Shown here: piece by piece, positions 1 to 6,322 of the stretch
How positions within the stretch are numbered: the first letter of the stretch is position 1
Layout: each line of letters starts with the position of its first letter
Virus record (IMG/VR): IMGVR_UViG_3300013108_000498
Coordinates: 1 to 27,988 of that record
Strand: one strand, 5' to 3'
Source of the DNA: a virus
DNA length: 27,988 nt
Notes under the pieces: generated by a model
Told to the model about the DNA's origin: nothing
Database searches by the model: none
The model's input: the letters and a program-made list of their open reading frames with translations, nothing else
Position numbers and translations under genes: made by a program

Positions 1-258
1 CCACAACTTAGAGGCAAAGTCACAAATTGGACAGTTATCCCCGAATTGTCGTTTTGGGCAAAGAACGCCACCACGGGCTCCATCACCTAGATTATAATGA
101 AAATGGAAAACCTTAAACGGATCTCCATCGTCTGTTGGAACTAAACGAATTTCTTGATCGCCCTCTTGAGGTCGCCAGAAAACGTTATCTGATTTAGACT
201 TCCCTCCAGATTCGGACTCTTGGAGTTTAGCCTTCATTTTTGCCATATCTAATGCCAT
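1..258 (-). CDS. 32: gp32-like single-stranded DNA-binding protein (N-terminal part, cut by window edge)
   Basis: The first 86 codons of a protein that runs off the left edge. It would coat single-stranded DNA during replication and recombination, as T4 gp32 does. The visible part has a zinc-binding set H54, C67, C76, C79; the H-x12-C spacing equals that of T4 gp32 (H64, C77), followed by CPIC and the stretch DFASKLW. The N-terminus carries a charged MAKMKAKL segment that may play the cooperativity role of the gp32 N-terminal arm (inference). The start ATG is chosen because AAGGAG lies 12 bases upstream; two further in-frame ATGs follow at codons 5 and 8. It is the last gene of the replication cluster and is separated from the tubulin-like gene by 59 bases. 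The core OB-fold and acidic tail lie outside the window. Confidence 0.88.
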   Translation of the reverse strand, partial: MALDMAKMKAKLQESESGGKSKSDNVFWRPQEGDQEIRLVPTDDGDPFKVFHFHYNLGDGARGGVLCPKRQFGDNCPICDFASKLW

Positions 259-317: not shown

Positions 318-1151
318 TTACTTCTGTATTATAGAAGTATGGTTTAAACAATAAATGTAATCTTGATCGTAATCCGTTTCATAAATTCCGTAAGTAACTC
401 TGTAACCGTCTTCTTTTTGAGAAGCTATTGCTTTTCGTATCTTACTCATTAATTCGGGATCCGTTTCAATCTTCGTCTTATTGTGTGTGTAATAATACAC
501 GATATCGGACACGCTGTCAAGAGAAAAAAACATCTTATCTTCATTTTTTTCCAAATCGCTCATGCCGATGGTAGTAATTCTTGCCCCAACTGGTAAAGTG
601 CTGAAGGTATTGGTTAATGATTTATTGTTATTATAAACATTAATCATATGGAGAGTCGAAACAATCATTTGATTAATCTTACTATAATAATCTTTGATGG
701 AAACCCCGCCAAGAATTGATTCAATCTCCTCATTGGAGGTCAAATATAATCTTTCAAAAACACCAGAACGCGCATATTCCTGAAATACATTAAAAACTAA
801 TTTCTCTAACTTCGCTTGGGTTTCATTAAGTAATGATAGTTCCGGTCTGATATACAAAACATTAATATTGCACTTATTTTTTAAATAACGCAAAACCCCT
901 AGCGATGCTGAGGAAATTTTTCCACCCCCACCCACGACAAACAAAATATCACCACGGACACCTCGGAAAAAATGCTGAAGTGTGGGCAGTTTTTCTTCAT
1001 AATCTTCAATCTTTTCAGGCTCTTTTAAGGGAAGTGTGGTCTTGGTCTTCTCCAAGCCAACATCGATTTTTTTGATAGAATATTGAGGATATTTGGCAAA
1101 CTCGTCTGCGATGTTACACCCAGCGTTGCCAAGACCGATGATAGTATCCAT
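318..1151 (-). CDS. divergent FtsZ/tubulin-superfamily protein
   Basis: 277 residues, shorter than FtsZ or phage PhuZ. Residues 6-13 (GLGNAGCN) fit the T1 nucleotide loop GxGxxGxN of FtsZ. Residues 67-90 (GDILFVV, GGGG, then SSASLGVLRYLK) sit where FtsZ has the GGGTGTG T4 loop, but the classical T/S-G pattern is lost. Residues 135-170 (LYLTSNEE, ILGGVSIKDYY, INQMIVSTLHMI) follow the FtsZ segment that begins LITIPND and continues into the central helix. Residues 180-200 replace the T7 loop NxDxxD; here it reads NTFSTLP, so both catalytic aspartates are absent. By family knowledge it may bind a nucleotide and form filaments; hydrolysis looks doubtful. Its ATG overlaps the MazG stop by one base (TAATG), implying coupled translation. 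A different Rossmann-like fold is the main alternative. Confidence 0.62.
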   Translation of the reverse strand: MDTIIGLGNAGCNIADEFAKYPQYSIKKIDVGLEKTKTTLPLKEPEKIEDYEEKLPTLQHFFRGVRGDILFVVGGGGKISSASLGVLRYLKNKCNINVLYIRPELSLLNETQAKLEKLVFNVFQEYARSGVFERLYLTSNEEIESILGGVSIKDYYSKINQMIVSTLHMINVYNNNKSLTNTFSTLPVGARITTIGMSDLEKNEDKMFFSLDSVSDIVYYYTHNKTKIETDPELMSKIRKAIASQKEDGYRVTYGIYETDYDQDYIYCLNHTSIIQK

Positions 1152-1462
1152 TATTCTGATACTTCCTCAAGAATGATTTTGTCGTGAAACGATCCGCGAG
1201 TGATTTTTTTGAATTGAGTGGTGGCTTTCAAGCCTGTCCAATTATACTCTGTTAACAAAGCATCTATTACTTCCTGAATATCAGCGAGTTCTTCTACGCA
1301 GGGTGTTTCGATGAATTCGGAAGTTTCTTCTTGAAGTTTTTCCATTAATTTCTGACGATATTCTTTGGTGTCTGCGATCCTGAATTTGCAGGTTCTACCT
1401 TTTTCTTTAATAATTTGAGGGATACGATCCCTTACAAGCTTGTCATAGTGTTTGGTGCTCAT
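1151..1462 (-). CDS. MazG-like nucleotide pyrophosphohydrolase
   Basis: 103 residues, a normal length for a single-domain MazG/PRA-PH-type all-alpha enzyme. The N-terminus YDKLVRDRIPQII (6-18) is the signature of the subfamily often annotated as phosphoribosyl-ATP pyrophosphohydrolase-like. The metal-binding acidic pairs are visible: EETSEF near residue 45 and EELADIQEVIDAL at 57-69. Enzymes of this fold hydrolyse NTPs or dNTPs to monophosphates and pyrophosphate; in phages they are thought to adjust nucleotide or alarmone pools, but the substrate cannot be read from sequence. The start codon overlaps the polymerase stop (ATGA), and the stop overlaps the tubulin-like start, so the three genes are probably translated as one coupled unit. 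Confidence 0.88.
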   Translation of the reverse strand: MSTKHYDKLVRDRIPQIIKEKGRTCKFRIADTKEYRQKLMEKLQEETSEFIETPCVEELADIQEVIDALLTEYNWTGLKATTQFKKITRGSFHDKIILEEVSE

Positions 1463-2661
1463 CGGAATTTCCTCATATTGCCAAAGTTTGTTCCCAAGCT
1501 GGCATTTACTTTAAATTTACCCAAGTCGGTATTGCCGAATTCTTTTATTAAATCTTCTAATAAATCTTTGTCATTGCGATCAAAATCAATTACCATACTA
1601 TCATGAATCAGCCCCATTGTAAAGGACTTTCTATTCTTTAACATTTTATTTACTGCGATTGCTCGCCTTAAAAACGTGTCGGAAGTTGTGCTTTGGATGA
1701 TCGCATTTAGAGAATGGAATTCATCAGCTTTTATCCTGCGACCGAAAGGGTTTACTATCTCTGTTCCCGTCCAGTATTTACGTTTAACCCCTTTCTTACT
1801 ATAATACCTCTCAATTTCAGGGATACCAAGAGAAACATTCGGCGGACCATAAAGCCAACTAAAGATCTTGCGTTTAATTTCATCTCTGTCCATTACATGA
1901 TCAGACAATTTGTTTAAGATTTTTCCATTCCATTCATGGATATCCATCTCTGGCTGATCAACTCCGTTCAATGCCAAGAGGCATCTTAATTCTGCTGCGT
2001 TAAAATCCAATTCAATAAACCAATCATTCTTTGGCTGGATTATCTTTCTATAATTCTTGTCCATTGTAAGGATTGGGAATGAATCCTTCTTTGTAGTTAA
2101 CCTTCCTGTGATTGTTCCAAAGACATTGTACTGAACATACGGGCTTGTCCTCTGAAGTTTTTCTTTAAACTTTCTTGTGCGCAATTGATGCAGAGATTCA
2201 TCTAATCCTGATGTGTTTAATATTAATTTATTCTTTGATATCCCATCAACCAATTCCGACAACTCAACCATGAAATCATAGTTTCTTGGTTTTTCATTTG
2301 TCTTAAGAATGTGTTCTGTGATTTGTGACTTTACTTCAAAGAATTCCATAACAAAAGATTCAGGAACAAGATCATAGAAGCAATAATCATTATAATTAAC
2401 TTTTCCAGTTTCAAAGCTTTTAAGAAATGCTAAATGTTTTTGTTTGACTTTCTCCCATTTATCTTTTAAAATGTCAGGACAACTTTGATCCAATGATTTT
2501 CCGTTAACATATAAAGATGCGTAATCAATATCATAATCTTTTAAAGAAGAATTGTATGACCATGTTTGTGTTAGGGAGTCAAAATCAGGATCGTTAATAA
2601 TTTGTTTGTTTGAATATATACTCGAACAAATTTGTTTGTTATCTATTATTTGAAATAACAT
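1459..2661 (-). CDS. polA-like: family-A DNA polymerase, compact (polymerase domain only)
   Basis: 400 residues. Three polymerase motifs are clear: motif A at LDFNAAELR with catalytic D219; motif B with R259, K263, F267, Y271 and G272 in the R-x3-K-x3-F-x3-YG spacing of the O helix; motif C IHDS with catalytic D354. The usual glutamate after D354 (HDE) is serine, and the G after F267 is serine. TGRL at 185-188 and N319/Q323 match further conserved positions. I see no 3'-5' exonuclease domain; the first ~150 residues are not recognisable, and the protein is much shorter than T7 polymerase or Klenow-type enzymes. Proofreading, if any, must come from another gene. T4 relatives normally replicate with a family-B enzyme, so this points to a mosaic replication module. 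An accessory role is possible. Confidence 0.9.
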   Translation of the reverse strand: MLFQIIDNKQICSSIYSNKQIINDPDFDSLTQTWSYNSSLKDYDIDYASLYVNGKSLDQSCPDILKDKWEKVKQKHLAFLKSFETGKVNYNDYCFYDLVPESFVMEFFEVKSQITEHILKTNEKPRNYDFMVELSELVDGISKNKLILNTSGLDESLHQLRTRKFKEKLQRTSPYVQYNVFGTITGRLTTKKDSFPILTMDKNYRKIIQPKNDWFIELDFNAAELRCLLALNGVDQPEMDIHEWNGKILNKLSDHVMDRDEIKRKIFSWLYGPPNVSLGIPEIERYYSKKGVKRKYWTGTEIVNPFGRRIKADEFHSLNAIIQSTTSDTFLRRAIAVNKMLKNRKSFTMGLIHDSMVIDFDRNDKDLLEDLIKEFGNTDLGKFKVNASLGTNFGNMRKFR

Positions 2662-2667
2662 GTTTTA

Positions 2668-2690
2668 GATCCTATCATATTTGATGGATC
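2668..2690 (-). promoter_or_regulatory. hairpin covering the polymerase Shine-Dalgarno
   Basis: On the minus-strand RNA, GAUCC-AUCA pairs with UGAU-GGAUC around the loop AAUA, with one bulged A: nine base pairs. The only good Shine-Dalgarno of the polymerase gene, AGGA, lies in the 3' arm (2670-2673). The hairpin overlaps the stop codon of the upstream 377-residue gene, so ribosomes ending there could open it. Confidence 0.42.
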
Positions 2691-3822
2691 ATGTCAATGT
2701 GAATTTATTGAAGGTATTATAAATGATTGATCTTGCTTGGTTTAATTCTTCATTTTTTGCCAATGATACTGATTGGAAGATTAGATCGTTCATCTCTTTC
2801 GAAGTCAGAACTCCGGGCTGTTCATTTGCTAACATTTTAACATAATATCCCACCCAAAAAGAATCGGGATATTGATCGAGAAACTTGTCTTCAAACAAAA
2901 TCTCTCTTGGTATTGTCTTTGTTAATGTTCTGTGGCATTTGCCATAGTATTCATAAATAAAGATATCAGGATTTGATTCCACATAGGTCCGATATGATTC
3001 ATAAAGAAATTCTTTTATGTGAGACATATCAGTTTCGTGAGTTTTGGTGTAGGAAATATCATAAAGGTTCAAGAATGACACTCCAGACTTTTCCATATAG
3101 CCTTGCATCGCAGGTGAGTTTAGATCTGCAATTAAACGCCAAGGCGCATTCTTATCGATCTTAAATCCAAATTTTTGCGCAACAGAAGTATAGCAGTCAA
3201 AACAATTTTGCTCCATGTAAAAAAGTTCTTTGGTCATATCATCTGCATGATTCGCACTAGAGAGTTCTATCATTATTCCAGAAATCAGGGGTGAAATCAG
3301 GGTGGATGTCAAATAATTTGTTAAAGTTATTGGAGTTATTGAACCAAATTCTTCCATATATTTATCGAAAGCGGTCAAGTAGTCGCCAAAAGATATGATT
3401 TTATTTTTACGATTGGCAACCTCTAAATATTCGCCAACAAATGTGTCATAAATATTTCCAGCATAACTTTTCCATCGCAATATTGGATTATAATATCCCT
3501 TAACTGGAACCAAGGATTCAAATACTGTTCCCACTACATCATAAGGTTGCATAAAAATATAGTTTTTACGAAAATCAGAAAAAGCATCAGCAACAAAATT
3601 TAAAACAAAAATGTTCTTTGCGGTATTTGACTCAAGGCGTGTTAAATAGTTTTCACGAGGATAAACAACAGAGCCATCAACACCAACTCTGCCATAGAGT
3701 GGTTTATTATACCACAGATCAAAAGGTGTGACTGGCGCTGAGTATCCATACTCTTTATATGAAAGTCTTTGGCGAAACAGTTCTGCCGCACTTAGATCAT
3801 TATTTCCGTACATGGATGCCAT
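2689..3822 (-). CDS. conserved-looking phage protein of unknown function
   Basis: 377 residues, soluble, with no signal peptide, transmembrane segment or catalytic motif that I recognise. It is rich in aromatic residues (many Y and F) and mostly helical in character; the N-terminal third contains YGRVGVDGSVVYPRENYL and FVADAFSDFRKNY. Residues around 205-225 carry two cysteines (NCFDCY). It lies between the baseplate hub gene and the polymerase gene, so it could be a minor virion protein or the first gene of the replication group. The ATG at 3822 lacks a clear Shine-Dalgarno; a second in-frame ATG lies at codon 4. An ACTATTTA-type motif sits 12 bases upstream. I do not assign a function. Confidence 0.8.
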   Translation of the reverse strand: MASMYGNNDLSAAELFRQRLSYKEYGYSAPVTPFDLWYNKPLYGRVGVDGSVVYPRENYLTRLESNTAKNIFVLNFVADAFSDFRKNYIFMQPYDVVGTVFESLVPVKGYYNPILRWKSYAGNIYDTFVGEYLEVANRKNKIISFGDYLTAFDKYMEEFGSITPITLTNYLTSTLISPLISGIMIELSSANHADDMTKELFYMEQNCFDCYTSVAQKFGFKIDKNAPWRLIADLNSPAMQGYMEKSGVSFLNLYDISYTKTHETDMSHIKEFLYESYRTYVESNPDIFIYEYYGKCHRTLTKTIPREILFEDKFLDQYPDSFWVGYYVKMLANEQPGVLTSKEMNDLIFQSVSLAKNEELNQARSIIYNTFNKFTLT

Positions 3823-3850: not shown

Positions 3851-6322
3851 TCAACTTATTGATTTCTTGGCAGCATTATTCGCTTTTTTGATTTGAGTAT
3901 TGCTCCACTTTTCAAGACCCAGGAGAGCATTTTGGGGTAGAGCGTCAAAAGTAGTCATGTAACCTCTTGAATCTAGCGTGTGTGTAACTTGTAGGACTTG
4001 ATAATACCCACCCAAGCCAACATTAGATGCCCATTCATATTTATTAATACCCCCTGCTATATCCGTGGTTATGCTATCCGGCAAACCAAGAGAGCGAGGG
4101 TTTATATAAATATTCATCCCATTTAAAATGAGAGGGTTTCCAAACATTTCTACACGACAAGAATAGAGTCCAGCCATAGCTAGATTTCCTCCACTATTAT
4201 CTGCGTTATTTACTATATTTTCGGCGATTAAAGAAGGGGGAAGTCCATGTCTTACAAAACGAACACTTTTCAACAACCCCTTGTTATTTCCAATATAAAA
4301 TGTCGGAACTGAATGCTCACTATTGTATGCAAGGCGTGTTGCTATATCACTAGCTCTAGTTGGTAGCGGTGGTGCGGACGTATCTCCCTGCAATAACATA
4401 TATTCCTTATATTCTGTTGTGGAACCGTCTTCATCAGAGGATCTTTCCCATCTGGCTTCTGTCAATTCCTCTAGAGAAATATTTTTTGTCACTCCTTTTT
4501 TCCAGATCTCATCCAGTATGTCCGACGCTGGCATTCGGAATTTGTACATGGTCGCCCGATCACTTGTCCCCAGTGGCTTTCCCCCAAATACACAATTCTT
4601 AAAAGCCAATGGAACTAATTCAGTACCTATGTGAGTTAAAAAGCTTGTGAGAGAATAATTTAACTTGTTTGGACCCCACACAACTTTGTCCCAGAACATT
4701 TGAAATGTGCTAAATGAAATTGGTAAATCAGCCAAAGACATTGTGTGTCTTTCCTGGGTTAACGGATTTTTGATCTCTATGGTTCCAAGGATGACTCGTA
4801 CTTTGTCCCACATTTTTTGAGCTTGCTGCATTCGTCTTACAGATAGACTTGGCGGGCAACCTTCTCCGATTTCTGGTCTATCATGAATTATTGTAAGGGC
4901 TGCTTCAATCAAATCGCCCAAAAAGAAAAAGTTAATTCTGCGCTCGCCTTGTCCCGATTCTTTAGACAGAGAACTTTGAAACGCTTTTCCCCACTCTGCT
5001 TGCATTTTGTCCCTTGACTTTTTATCATTCCCTGCTTTCTTGATGATCTCTTTTGCTTCAGAAATTGGATGAGTGTCAACACCTTTGGTCCCCCGTTTTT
5101 TAACACTCTTGTATATAGATATCACCACCTGTTTCCTGAATTCATTAGCCTTGTACATTTTATTACCAAGTCGCTTATGCTTGGTATTTTTTGCCATCTG
5201 CCTCTTTGCCTCAACATAAGACACCAAAACATCTTCAGGCAAATCTATATAAAACATGCGACCGCCCTGATCTTCATCATCACTTGCTTCATTAAAATTT
5301 AAATTTTCCATAATGGTGAATAAGGACACCCAAGCATCCTTGGCAGAGATAGAACTCAAATCACTTAAAGCCTGTTGAATACCCGCTTGGGTTCTCTTTT
5401 TTTCTTTTTGCACTGCTTCTTCAGAAACTAGACCATCTTTAGCAGATTTTCTACTTTCTTTGAGCTGGCGAGAGAGGCGATCTTTTTCGCTTGTTACAAC
5501 TTGTGACTGAATGGAGTTGTCGGTGGCAAAAAAGAGATCAAGTTCTGCTCCCTGTTGAGAAGTAGCATCTAAATTGCCAGTAAAATTAATAGAAATCTCT
5601 ATCTCGCCAGACTCCTGAAGATCGATCTCATACTGATAACTTTGCATAAACACTACATGCTTTAATGATCTAATCATCTTTAATTCAGAGGAATTAAAGA
5701 GGGTGTTATTACTATCATCTGGCACTTGCCAACCTATTTCAATTTTTATTGGGTATCTCCGTACAATATCAGCAGCCAACATTTCTTCTTGAGATGGGTA
5801 GGTTTGTCCGCCATGTTCGGTGTGTAATAAATCTGAAAACCGGATGTCCCCTGGTCTTGTCATGAAGAAAGCTTCCAAACTTTGACAATACAGTTTCAAT
5901 TCCCCAGATTGGTTTGCCCGTGATTCTGTGTGCTTACCCTCATCGCGCATCTGAAGGCTTCTAAGGGAAACTGCGGTGCCGCGCCCTTCGATACTGTTTG
6001 TAATTGAATCGACAGTTTGAAGGGTGTTAAGAGGGAATTGTACTGATGTTCCATCTCTCAACATTTTGTAGATCTTTATCTTCGGAACAAGCAAAGAGAG
6101 TTGAGCAGGAGTAATTTGATTAAAACGAAGACCTTTAGAGAAAGGAGCTAATACTAATCGGTTTACTTCTGCTCCCGGAGCGCCACTAAGTTGAATGAAG
6201 CGCGTGTATGGTGGCGGAACCCACTTCTCCCCTCTTTTTACAGTGTTTTTAAAAAGGTGAATGTTGTCTAAAATAAATTCTTGTTCGGTGAATGTTACAG
6301 TCTTTGGTTTTCTTCTCGCCAT
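3851..6322 (-). CDS. large baseplate hub-like virion protein (gp27/gpD-like C-terminus)
   Basis: 823 residues. The C-terminal ~150 residues resemble hub proteins of contractile tails (T4 gp27, P2 gpD, VgrG base): the segment GGYYQVLQVTHTLDSRGY followed by MTTFDALP is typical of the end of the second hub domain, where a thread is closed before variable ends. A charged, probably coiled-coil stretch lies at about 275-325 and a lysine-rich stretch at about 375-450. The protein is about twice the length of T4 gp27, so the middle (about 300-600) looks like an extra domain of unknown role. Its Shine-Dalgarno GGAG is inside the last codons of the LysM gene, two bases upstream, and both follow the tape measure and tube initiator, the usual place of hub genes. 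I see no lysozyme or peptidase motif. Hub identity is inferred from context and the C-terminus. Confidence 0.65.
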   Translation of the reverse strand: MARRKPKTVTFTEQEFILDNIHLFKNTVKRGEKWVPPPYTRFIQLSGAPGAEVNRLVLAPFSKGLRFNQITPAQLSLLVPKIKIYKMLRDGTSVQFPLNTLQTVDSITNSIEGRGTAVSLRSLQMRDEGKHTESRANQSGELKLYCQSLEAFFMTRPGDIRFSDLLHTEHGGQTYPSQEEMLAADIVRRYPIKIEIGWQVPDDSNNTLFNSSELKMIRSLKHVVFMQSYQYEIDLQESGEIEISINFTGNLDATSQQGAELDLFFATDNSIQSQVVTSEKDRLSRQLKESRKSAKDGLVSEEAVQKEKKRTQAGIQQALSDLSSISAKDAWVSLFTIMENLNFNEASDDEDQGGRMFYIDLPEDVLVSYVEAKRQMAKNTKHKRLGNKMYKANEFRKQVVISIYKSVKKRGTKGVDTHPISEAKEIIKKAGNDKKSRDKMQAEWGKAFQSSLSKESGQGERRINFFFLGDLIEAALTIIHDRPEIGEGCPPSLSVRRMQQAQKMWDKVRVILGTIEIKNPLTQERHTMSLADLPISFSTFQMFWDKVVWGPNKLNYSLTSFLTHIGTELVPLAFKNCVFGGKPLGTSDRATMYKFRMPASDILDEIWKKGVTKNISLEELTEARWERSSDEDGSTTEYKEYMLLQGDTSAPPLPTRASDIATRLAYNSEHSVPTFYIGNNKGLLKSVRFVRHGLPPSLIAENIVNNADNSGGNLAMAGLYSCRVEMFGNPLILNGMNIYINPRSLGLPDSITTDIAGGINKYEWASNVGLGGYYQVLQVTHTLDSRGYMTTFDALPQNALLGLEKWSNTQIKKANNAAKKSIS

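Follow-up and report, generated by a model that had tools for sequence, protein, structure and literature searches.

The window, by which we mean the whole viral contig of 27,988 bases analysed here, encodes a predicted divergent member of the tubulin superfamily that lies among phage DNA replication genes. The features that make tubulins dynamic are gone from its family, which nevertheless stays with replication genes. We give roughly even chances to the reading that this protein is a guanine-nucleotide-binding replication accessory, which would work without the usual GTPase cycle and act as a scaffold or adaptor, not as a dynamic filament; the reading draws on family alignments and predicted models. 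A more specific form of it, in which the tubulin fold would serve as a subunit of the replication machinery, as a non-hydrolysing, guanine-nucleotide-dependent accessory of the small family A polymerase and the single-stranded-DNA-binding protein (SSB), is put forward tentatively, and we would sooner doubt than accept it. If true, a relative of tubulin would work in DNA synthesis and not in a dynamic cytoskeleton. The gene and its neighbours are as follows.

318..1151, minus strand: tubulin-fold gene, 277 aa; open reading frame with ATG at 1151; AlphaFold2 pLDDT 94.1, pTM 0.92
1151..1462, minus strand: candidate MazG-like NTP pyrophosphatase, 103 aa; 1-base overlap with the tubulin start
1459..2661, minus strand: small family A DNA polymerase (PolA), 400 aa; Pfam DNA_pol_A 2.7e-11; 4-base overlap with the MazG-like gene
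1..258, minus strand: start of a gp32-like SSB, named from sequence, the rest lying beyond the window edge
2689-3822, minus strand: gene upstream of PolA (cl4/cl5 by position); no Pfam match
3851-6322, minus strand: gene upstream of PolA (cl4/cl5 by position)

Read in the frame of the tubulin gene, the plus strand at 318..1151 contains many stops. The preliminary description of this DNA had already placed a MazG gene and a polymerase beside the gene, and both neighbours stand. The MazG motif is EExxE...ExxD, and in the MazG-like ORF E45, E46, E49, E58, and D61 are invariant in 18 aligned rows; Pfam gave no match above its cut-off for this ORF (only PRA-PH, at E 0.3) and a search of PDB sequences retrieved no relative. 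All 18 rows of PolA share D219, K263, Y271, and D354, which we take to resemble motifs A, B, and C, and the 400-residue protein is a candidate minimal phage replicase. The polymerase domain is the only one that Pfam recognises in it. The putative SSB was named from its resemblance to gp32 and from an annotated "ssDNA binding protein" in the matching slot of phage immuto; a representative relative of the window SSB had no Pfam match. The upstream genes cl4 and cl5 evolve fast, with mean identities of 27% and 26% (22 and 7 loci), against 47% and 51% for the tubulin in the same loci. The remainder of the window reads, in our interpretation, as a T4-type structural module, and its terminase and capsid protein match T4-type phages.

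A single-sequence scan of viral contigs detected relatives of the tubulin gene at 44 loci, with best-segment identities of 33-100%, the copy in L002 being identical to the window gene. Three relatives with about 89% identity gave dN/dS values of 0.051-0.055, and for a fourth, L006, saturation precluded an estimate. Relatives at 44 loci, a dN/dS of about 0.05 and a confident model together confirm that the tubulin-fold ORF is a real gene, beyond chance. With an alignment as query, viral contigs encoded relatives at no fewer than 590 of at least 599 matched stretches, 80 of which were kept. No match was found when three family members were compared by tblastn with 50,697 phage records, and one peptide pattern searched in bacterial genome contigs gave five pattern matches, none of them a relative, a search by which distant members may be missed. 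The family is so far known from viral contigs only. All seven long contigs (102-185 kb) carry one full tubulin gene each; in one of them the gene is in two pieces, and one has an extra 50-residue match (E 0.004).

Viral contigs also contain FtsZ itself. An FtsZ alignment found 70 viral-contig loci with real FtsZ (L218-L287), with identities of 42-53% in 68 of them and of 66 and 71% in the remaining two, both short; these are either phage-borne or bacterial contamination. A single-sequence scan of viral contigs with E. coli FtsZ gave no pattern match. The 50-75 kb region of phage 201phi2-1 (L139) has no annotated tubulin and was left out of comparisons.

The preliminary description took the product for a divergent relative of tubulin and FtsZ, encoded by a T4-type phage, and expected a tubulin, FtsZ or TubZ structure to match over residues 1-200. 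The structural searches bear this out, and the matches to CetZ, TubZ, and FtsZ in fact extend over model residues 1-277. The AlphaFold2 model of the window protein, built with 29 family sequences, has the confidence values listed above. With Foldseek against the PDB, FtsZ and TubZ structures filled the best 50 rows (best E 1.5e-12). In VIA-align, the model matched CetZ 3zid (Z 24.4, rmsd 2.9, 255 residues aligned), TubZ 2xka (Z 22.9, rmsd 3.0, 272 aligned) and FtsZ 2r6r (Z 21.9, rmsd 3.7, 267 aligned). A second model, of a relative with 34% identity to the window protein (L037), reached pLDDT 92.9 and matched CetZ with Z 24.7 and both FtsZ and TubZ with 23.5. In both models the best 50 fold rows belong to the tubulin superfamily over nearly the whole chain (Z 20.8-24.4 and 21.5-24.7), and the best CetZ, TubZ, and FtsZ rows lie at most 2.5 Z apart. 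PhuZ is absent among the best 50 PDB structure rows of either model. In BFVD, the best viral match was A0A6J5RW92, a 452-residue "FtsZ Cell division GTPase" of an uncultured Caudovirales phage, and PhuZ of phage Noxifer came fourth. Prediction thus confirms a two-domain tubulin fold joined by the core helix H7. This fold was read from monomer models, in which a non-canonical interface is invisible.

Sequence comparison gave a much fainter signal. Searches of Pfam, PHROGs and PDB sequences with the window protein and its family, and of NCBIfam with the window protein, returned no tubulin match above cut-off; Pfam Tubulin (PF00091) did not match anywhere in the window even when E values up to 10 were allowed, and 13 of 14 control genomes did match. 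Among 29 members, Pfam reported Tubulin in one (E 0.039), weak DEAD matches in seven (best 0.0087), TrkA_N in four (best 4.7e-4), and PA_Ig-like in one (3.1e-4). We built a family profile of 157 members, taken from 191 loci and the window after removal of identical rows, and compared it by hhalign with FtsZ and PhuZ; CetZ and TubZ were set beside the family by fold alone. Against nine PhuZ sequences the probability was 61% (E 8e-5, as a pair comparison), in a match that covers residues 4-100 only, with T1 and T4 aligned. A profile of eight FtsZ sequences, namely that of E. coli K-12 and seven from phage-collection records resembling bacterial DNA, gave 0.7-1.0%. As controls, PhuZ against FtsZ reached 81 and 93%, and three PolA comparisons 0.1-0.4%. 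A smaller, 41-member profile gave 0.9% against the single phiKZ PhuZ sequence. Taken together, these values make distant homology likely, and PhuZ appears nearer than FtsZ, the other family in the profile comparison, through a weak link.

That Pfam Tubulin does not match the window protein, together with the weak DEAD and TrkA_N matches among the 29 members, might instead suggest a Rossmann-like protein that is unrelated to tubulin and resembles it by chance. Given that all of the best 50 fold rows of two models are tubulins in the broad sense, and given the weak PhuZ profile link, we consider this extremely improbable. The FtsZ comparison bears on another alternative, that of a decoy or poison of host FtsZ, which would block division during infection. 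Other phages carry small FtsZ inhibitors, and the protein does have the FtsZ fold (Z 21.9); however, a profile match of just 0.7-1.0% makes co-assembly by mimicry unlikely, and the gene sits inside a replication operon. We regard a decoy as highly unlikely, and among a decoy, a filament and a nucleotide sensor (the latter two are discussed below) it seems the least likely.

The segments that correspond to the functional loops of tubulins are listed below, with their conservation in the 157 sequences.

1113..1136, minus strand: T1 phosphate loop GLGNAGCN, residues 6-13; G6 in 155/157, G8 in 156/157, G11 in 155/157
903..932, minus strand: degenerate T4 loop GGGGKISSAS, residues 74-83; G75 in 141/157, G77 in 131/157, S80 in 132/157
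762..782, minus strand: QEYARSG, residues 124-130, at the end of H5; Q124 in 157/157, R128 in 157/157, S129 in 156/157
732..734, minus strand: N140, opposite FtsZ N165 in a low-probability alignment; N in 147/157
630..698, minus strand: core helix H7, residues 152-174, with N160; helix in the model, N160 in 148/157
582..629, minus strand: slot of the T7 loop and H8, residues 175-190; no helix and no conserved acid

The T1 loop has the GxGxxGxN form that had been read from the window sequence, and the glycine-rich, T4-like loop followed by a helix was likewise recovered: in the model, GGGGKISS (residues 74-81) has a strand before it and a helix after it. The equivalent loop in E. coli FtsZ is GGGTGTG (residues 105-111). 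Across the 157 sequences the T4 signature GGGTG(S/T)G gives way to a GxGx[IV]S pattern; PhuZ, an accepted phage tubulin, also deviates from this signature. Residues 171-190 contain no conserved acid in the 157 sequences, the highest share of D or E being 0.61, at position 188; the catalytic acids of T7 are invariant in eight FtsZ (D209/D212) and in nine PhuZ (D201/D204). The earlier observation that the T7 aspartates and the GTG part of T4 are missing therefore holds for the family as a whole. In both models (window and L037) a coil or short strand takes the place of H8 and a hairpin that of H9, element names that we assigned from the order of elements. In 41 sequences the entropy of residues 177-190 is 2.50, exceeded only by residues 39-42 (2.57).

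We also considered residues 171-176 (NVYNNN, compared with NVDFAD in FtsZ) as the T7 loop. This placing is doubtful, as a near-gapless alignment of H7 ends with FtsZ N207 at residue 181, and the acids were for this reason counted over all of 171-190. Residues 171-176 have an entropy of 1.49, against 1.72 overall, and N171 is present in 151/157; being more conserved than average, this region may have its own function.

Other parts of the protein are strongly conserved. G6, G8, G11, E52, L84, Q124, R128, and S129 are each kept in at least 151/157 sequences and P103 in 139/157, and the residues of the presumed pocket (the T1 glycines, E49, E52, G75, G77, S80, P103, N140, and N160) in 131 to 156/157. 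QEYARSG forms the core of the most conserved stretch of the family, residues 122-130, with an entropy of 0.48 against 1.72 overall in 41 sequences. A central block following FtsZ around its IPND segment and core helix had also been proposed. N140 and N160 fall opposite N165 and N186 of E. coli FtsZ (FtsZ segment 160-194) in an alignment with a probability of 0.7-1.0%. With this in mind, the putative guanine-contacting asparagines N140 and N160 seem to be kept.

In tubulins, T7, H8, and H9 carry the canonical longitudinal and lateral contacts. This matters for the alternative that the protein is a true cytoskeletal filament of new geometry, which would position or compact replicating phage DNA in the manner of PhuZ or AlpC. 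PhuZ centres the phage nucleus, and the weak sequence link to it (hhalign 61%), the full tubulin fold and the location within a replication operon all speak for such a filament, as does the precedent of the prophage actin AlpC, a cytoskeletal-fold protein that supports viral DNA replication (PMC4446434). Against it, T7, H8, and H9 are degenerate here, and few segments are as poorly conserved as residues 177-190 (entropy 2.50). Canonical protofilaments have T7, the base of H8 and S9 in the same space (PMC3678025); because this part is degenerate in the family, a PhuZ-like dynamic filament is less likely than a static polymer, an oligomer or a monomer. A filament of new geometry is thus conceivable, though we lean against it.

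In the genomes, the usual gene order is small gene, large gene, cl4, PolA, (MazG-like), tubulin, SSB, UvsX/RecA, 5'-exonuclease, DnaB. Among 124 loci selected by the tubulin, SSB is present in 120, PolA in 106, UvsX/RecA in 98, exonuclease in 67 and DnaB in 36, the counts of the outer genes being limited by contig ends; one locus (L001) consists of the tubulin gene alone, and some contigs are present twice. The SSB cluster follows the tubulin in 120/124 loci. Representatives of the downstream genes were recognised by Pfam as RecA (3.6e-39), 5_3_exonuc_N (1.8e-28), and DnaB_C (1.9e-20). In the reverse direction, an alignment of PolA (17 tubulin-linked sequences and that of immuto) retrieved at least 549 relatives among at least 599 stretches, of which the best 80 were kept. 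A tubulin lies downstream in 75 of the 76 testable loci among these best 80, within 600 bases in 69 and at 763-2,632 bases in six; of the remaining loci, one is without tubulin and four are too short to tell. The exception, L182, is the sole PolA-selected locus with more than 1.5 kb downstream (1,618 bases seen) and no tubulin. As these are the best-scoring PolA relatives, on contigs partly shared with the tubulin-selected set, distant PolA may differ. This arrangement suggests a role in replication, although neighbourhood alone is no proof. It also weighs against the filament reading: PhuZ is non-essential and missing from one-third of its phage family (PMC10299810), whereas the present gene occurs in 75/76 of the PolA-selected loci.

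PolA was considered as a specific partner of the tubulin. The correlation between the two, 0.909 in 26 loci, fell to 0.625 in 100 dereplicated loci, where gp32 reached 0.604 and the bootstrap interval of the PolA-gp32 difference was -0.045 to 0.092. With the covariation gone at 100 loci, no specific partner is indicated.

The MazG-like gene is an optional neighbour, present in 32/124 loci and absent from 92/124. The coupling of the tubulin to a MazG enzyme that had been suggested for the window is seen there as two adjoining ORFs and does not extend to most of the family. In L050 (779-1951) the MazG-like and tubulin genes form one open frame of 391 codons with no stop, which may be a fusion or a small assembly or sequencing error; L013 has a similar MazG-like tail, with the genes separate. 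These observations bear on the idea of a nucleotide sensor, which would read the level of GTP/GDP (or dGTP) and, jointly with the MazG-like NTP pyrophosphatase, tune the polymerase. Conservation of the guanine-side residues but not of the T7 acids would suit a sensor, as would the MazG-like gene in 32 loci and the single frame of L050; its absence from the other 92, and the chance that the lone fused frame is an error, make us consider this role improbable.

Returning to the accessory reading, we propose that the reduced tubulin-fold protein would be made from the phage replication operon and would bind guanine nucleotide in the usual pocket, as the low-probability alignment suggests; counting against GTP binding, the phosphate-holding T4 loop is degenerate. 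In the usual cycle, hydrolysis of the GTP in one subunit is set off by the T7 loop of the adjacent one. With the T7 acids missing this cycle would be impossible, and hence no dynamic filament like those of FtsZ and PhuZ would be expected. The protein would rather be a nucleotide-dependent scaffold or adaptor of replication proteins, serving phage DNA replication, and may contact them through the invariant QEYARSG patch. It could act singly, as a small oligomer, or within a static polymer of non-canonical type.

Among known systems, PhuZ of the phiKZ-like jumbo phages is likewise a phage-encoded tubulin fold with T1 and a non-canonical T4 (GGASGST in phiKZ). However, PhuZ of phiKZ has 327 residues, whereas this family ends at about 277 and has no long C-terminal extension; PhuZ keeps the LDxxD aspartates of T7 (D201/D204), whereas this family has no conserved T7 acids and, in the models, no helical H8 or H9; and, unlike PhuZ, it is housed in a T4-type replication operon. 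By fold, archaeal CetZ and the TubZ of plasmids and phages score highest (Z 24.4 over 255 residues and Z 22.9 over 272, respectively), with 14-19% identity to the window protein and listed chains of 330-414 residues. Both CetZ and TubZ keep the GTPase loops. FtsZ shares the fold (Z 21.9), and its core segment around IPN and H7 aligns with the family at low probability, but it has GGGTGTG and D209/D212, both missing from this family, whose neighbours are replication genes. A0A6J5RW92, compared by fold alone, has a TM of 0.81 by query length, yet it is 452 residues long and 16% identical. FtsZl1 and FtsZl2 are likewise divergent families of the superfamily, found in bacteria and archaea; FtsZl1 departs from FtsZ around S6-T7 and in the C-terminal domain, and its context is membrane remodelling (PMC2875224). 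The signature GGGTG(S/T)G is in the FtsZl1 match region and was used to find FtsZl2 (PMC2875224); the present family is without it. Phage tubulins are known mainly from jumbo and plasmid-like phages (PMC7824862). Since FtsZ-labelled proteins of uncultured phages are already public, FtsZ-like genes in such phages are not new as such; in the open-licence PMC literature we found no description of the reduced family, its missing T7 acids or its place in a replication operon. Being small and predicted with confidence, the protein lends itself to asking whether tubulin folds can function in the absence of a GTPase-driven filament, and also what Far-T4-type phages need for replication.

The assignment to this phage type comes from the capsid protein of the window, whose best records are an uncultured phage, Flavobacterium phage immuto, Microcystis phage Mel-JY01, a second uncultured phage, and Rhodothermus phage RM378. 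RM378 scores 260 bits, against 174-179 for cyanophage and Stenotrophomonas phage rows. RM378 is a member of the Far-T4 clade (PMC4360716), and we call the window phage Far-T4-type because its capsid protein is near that of RM378. Far-T4-type phages, as typed from the window's contig alone, would then carry this tubulin. Far-T4 phages are common in water, and their hosts are uncertain (PMC4360716); the main text of that article does not contain "FtsZ", "gp32", or "UvsX", and its count for "tubulin" is 0. None of immuto, Mel-JY01, RM378, and the two uncultured records has a detectable copy of the tubulin (5/5); for the three named phages, this counts against the accessory reading. The cultured, syntenic phage immuto carries PolA, two small ORFs, SSB, RecA, exonuclease, and DnaB. 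Near the SSB genes of immuto and Mel-JY01, two small proteins (L125:1346-1801 and L127:36675-37064, respectively) share, by eye, the motif VHRKKESNT[LM]YTIN[SA]LN, and they make up a small family, as yet without a name, in phages that lack the tubulin. Mel-JY01 also has an annotated ribosomal protein S21 gene (L127:7184-7411).
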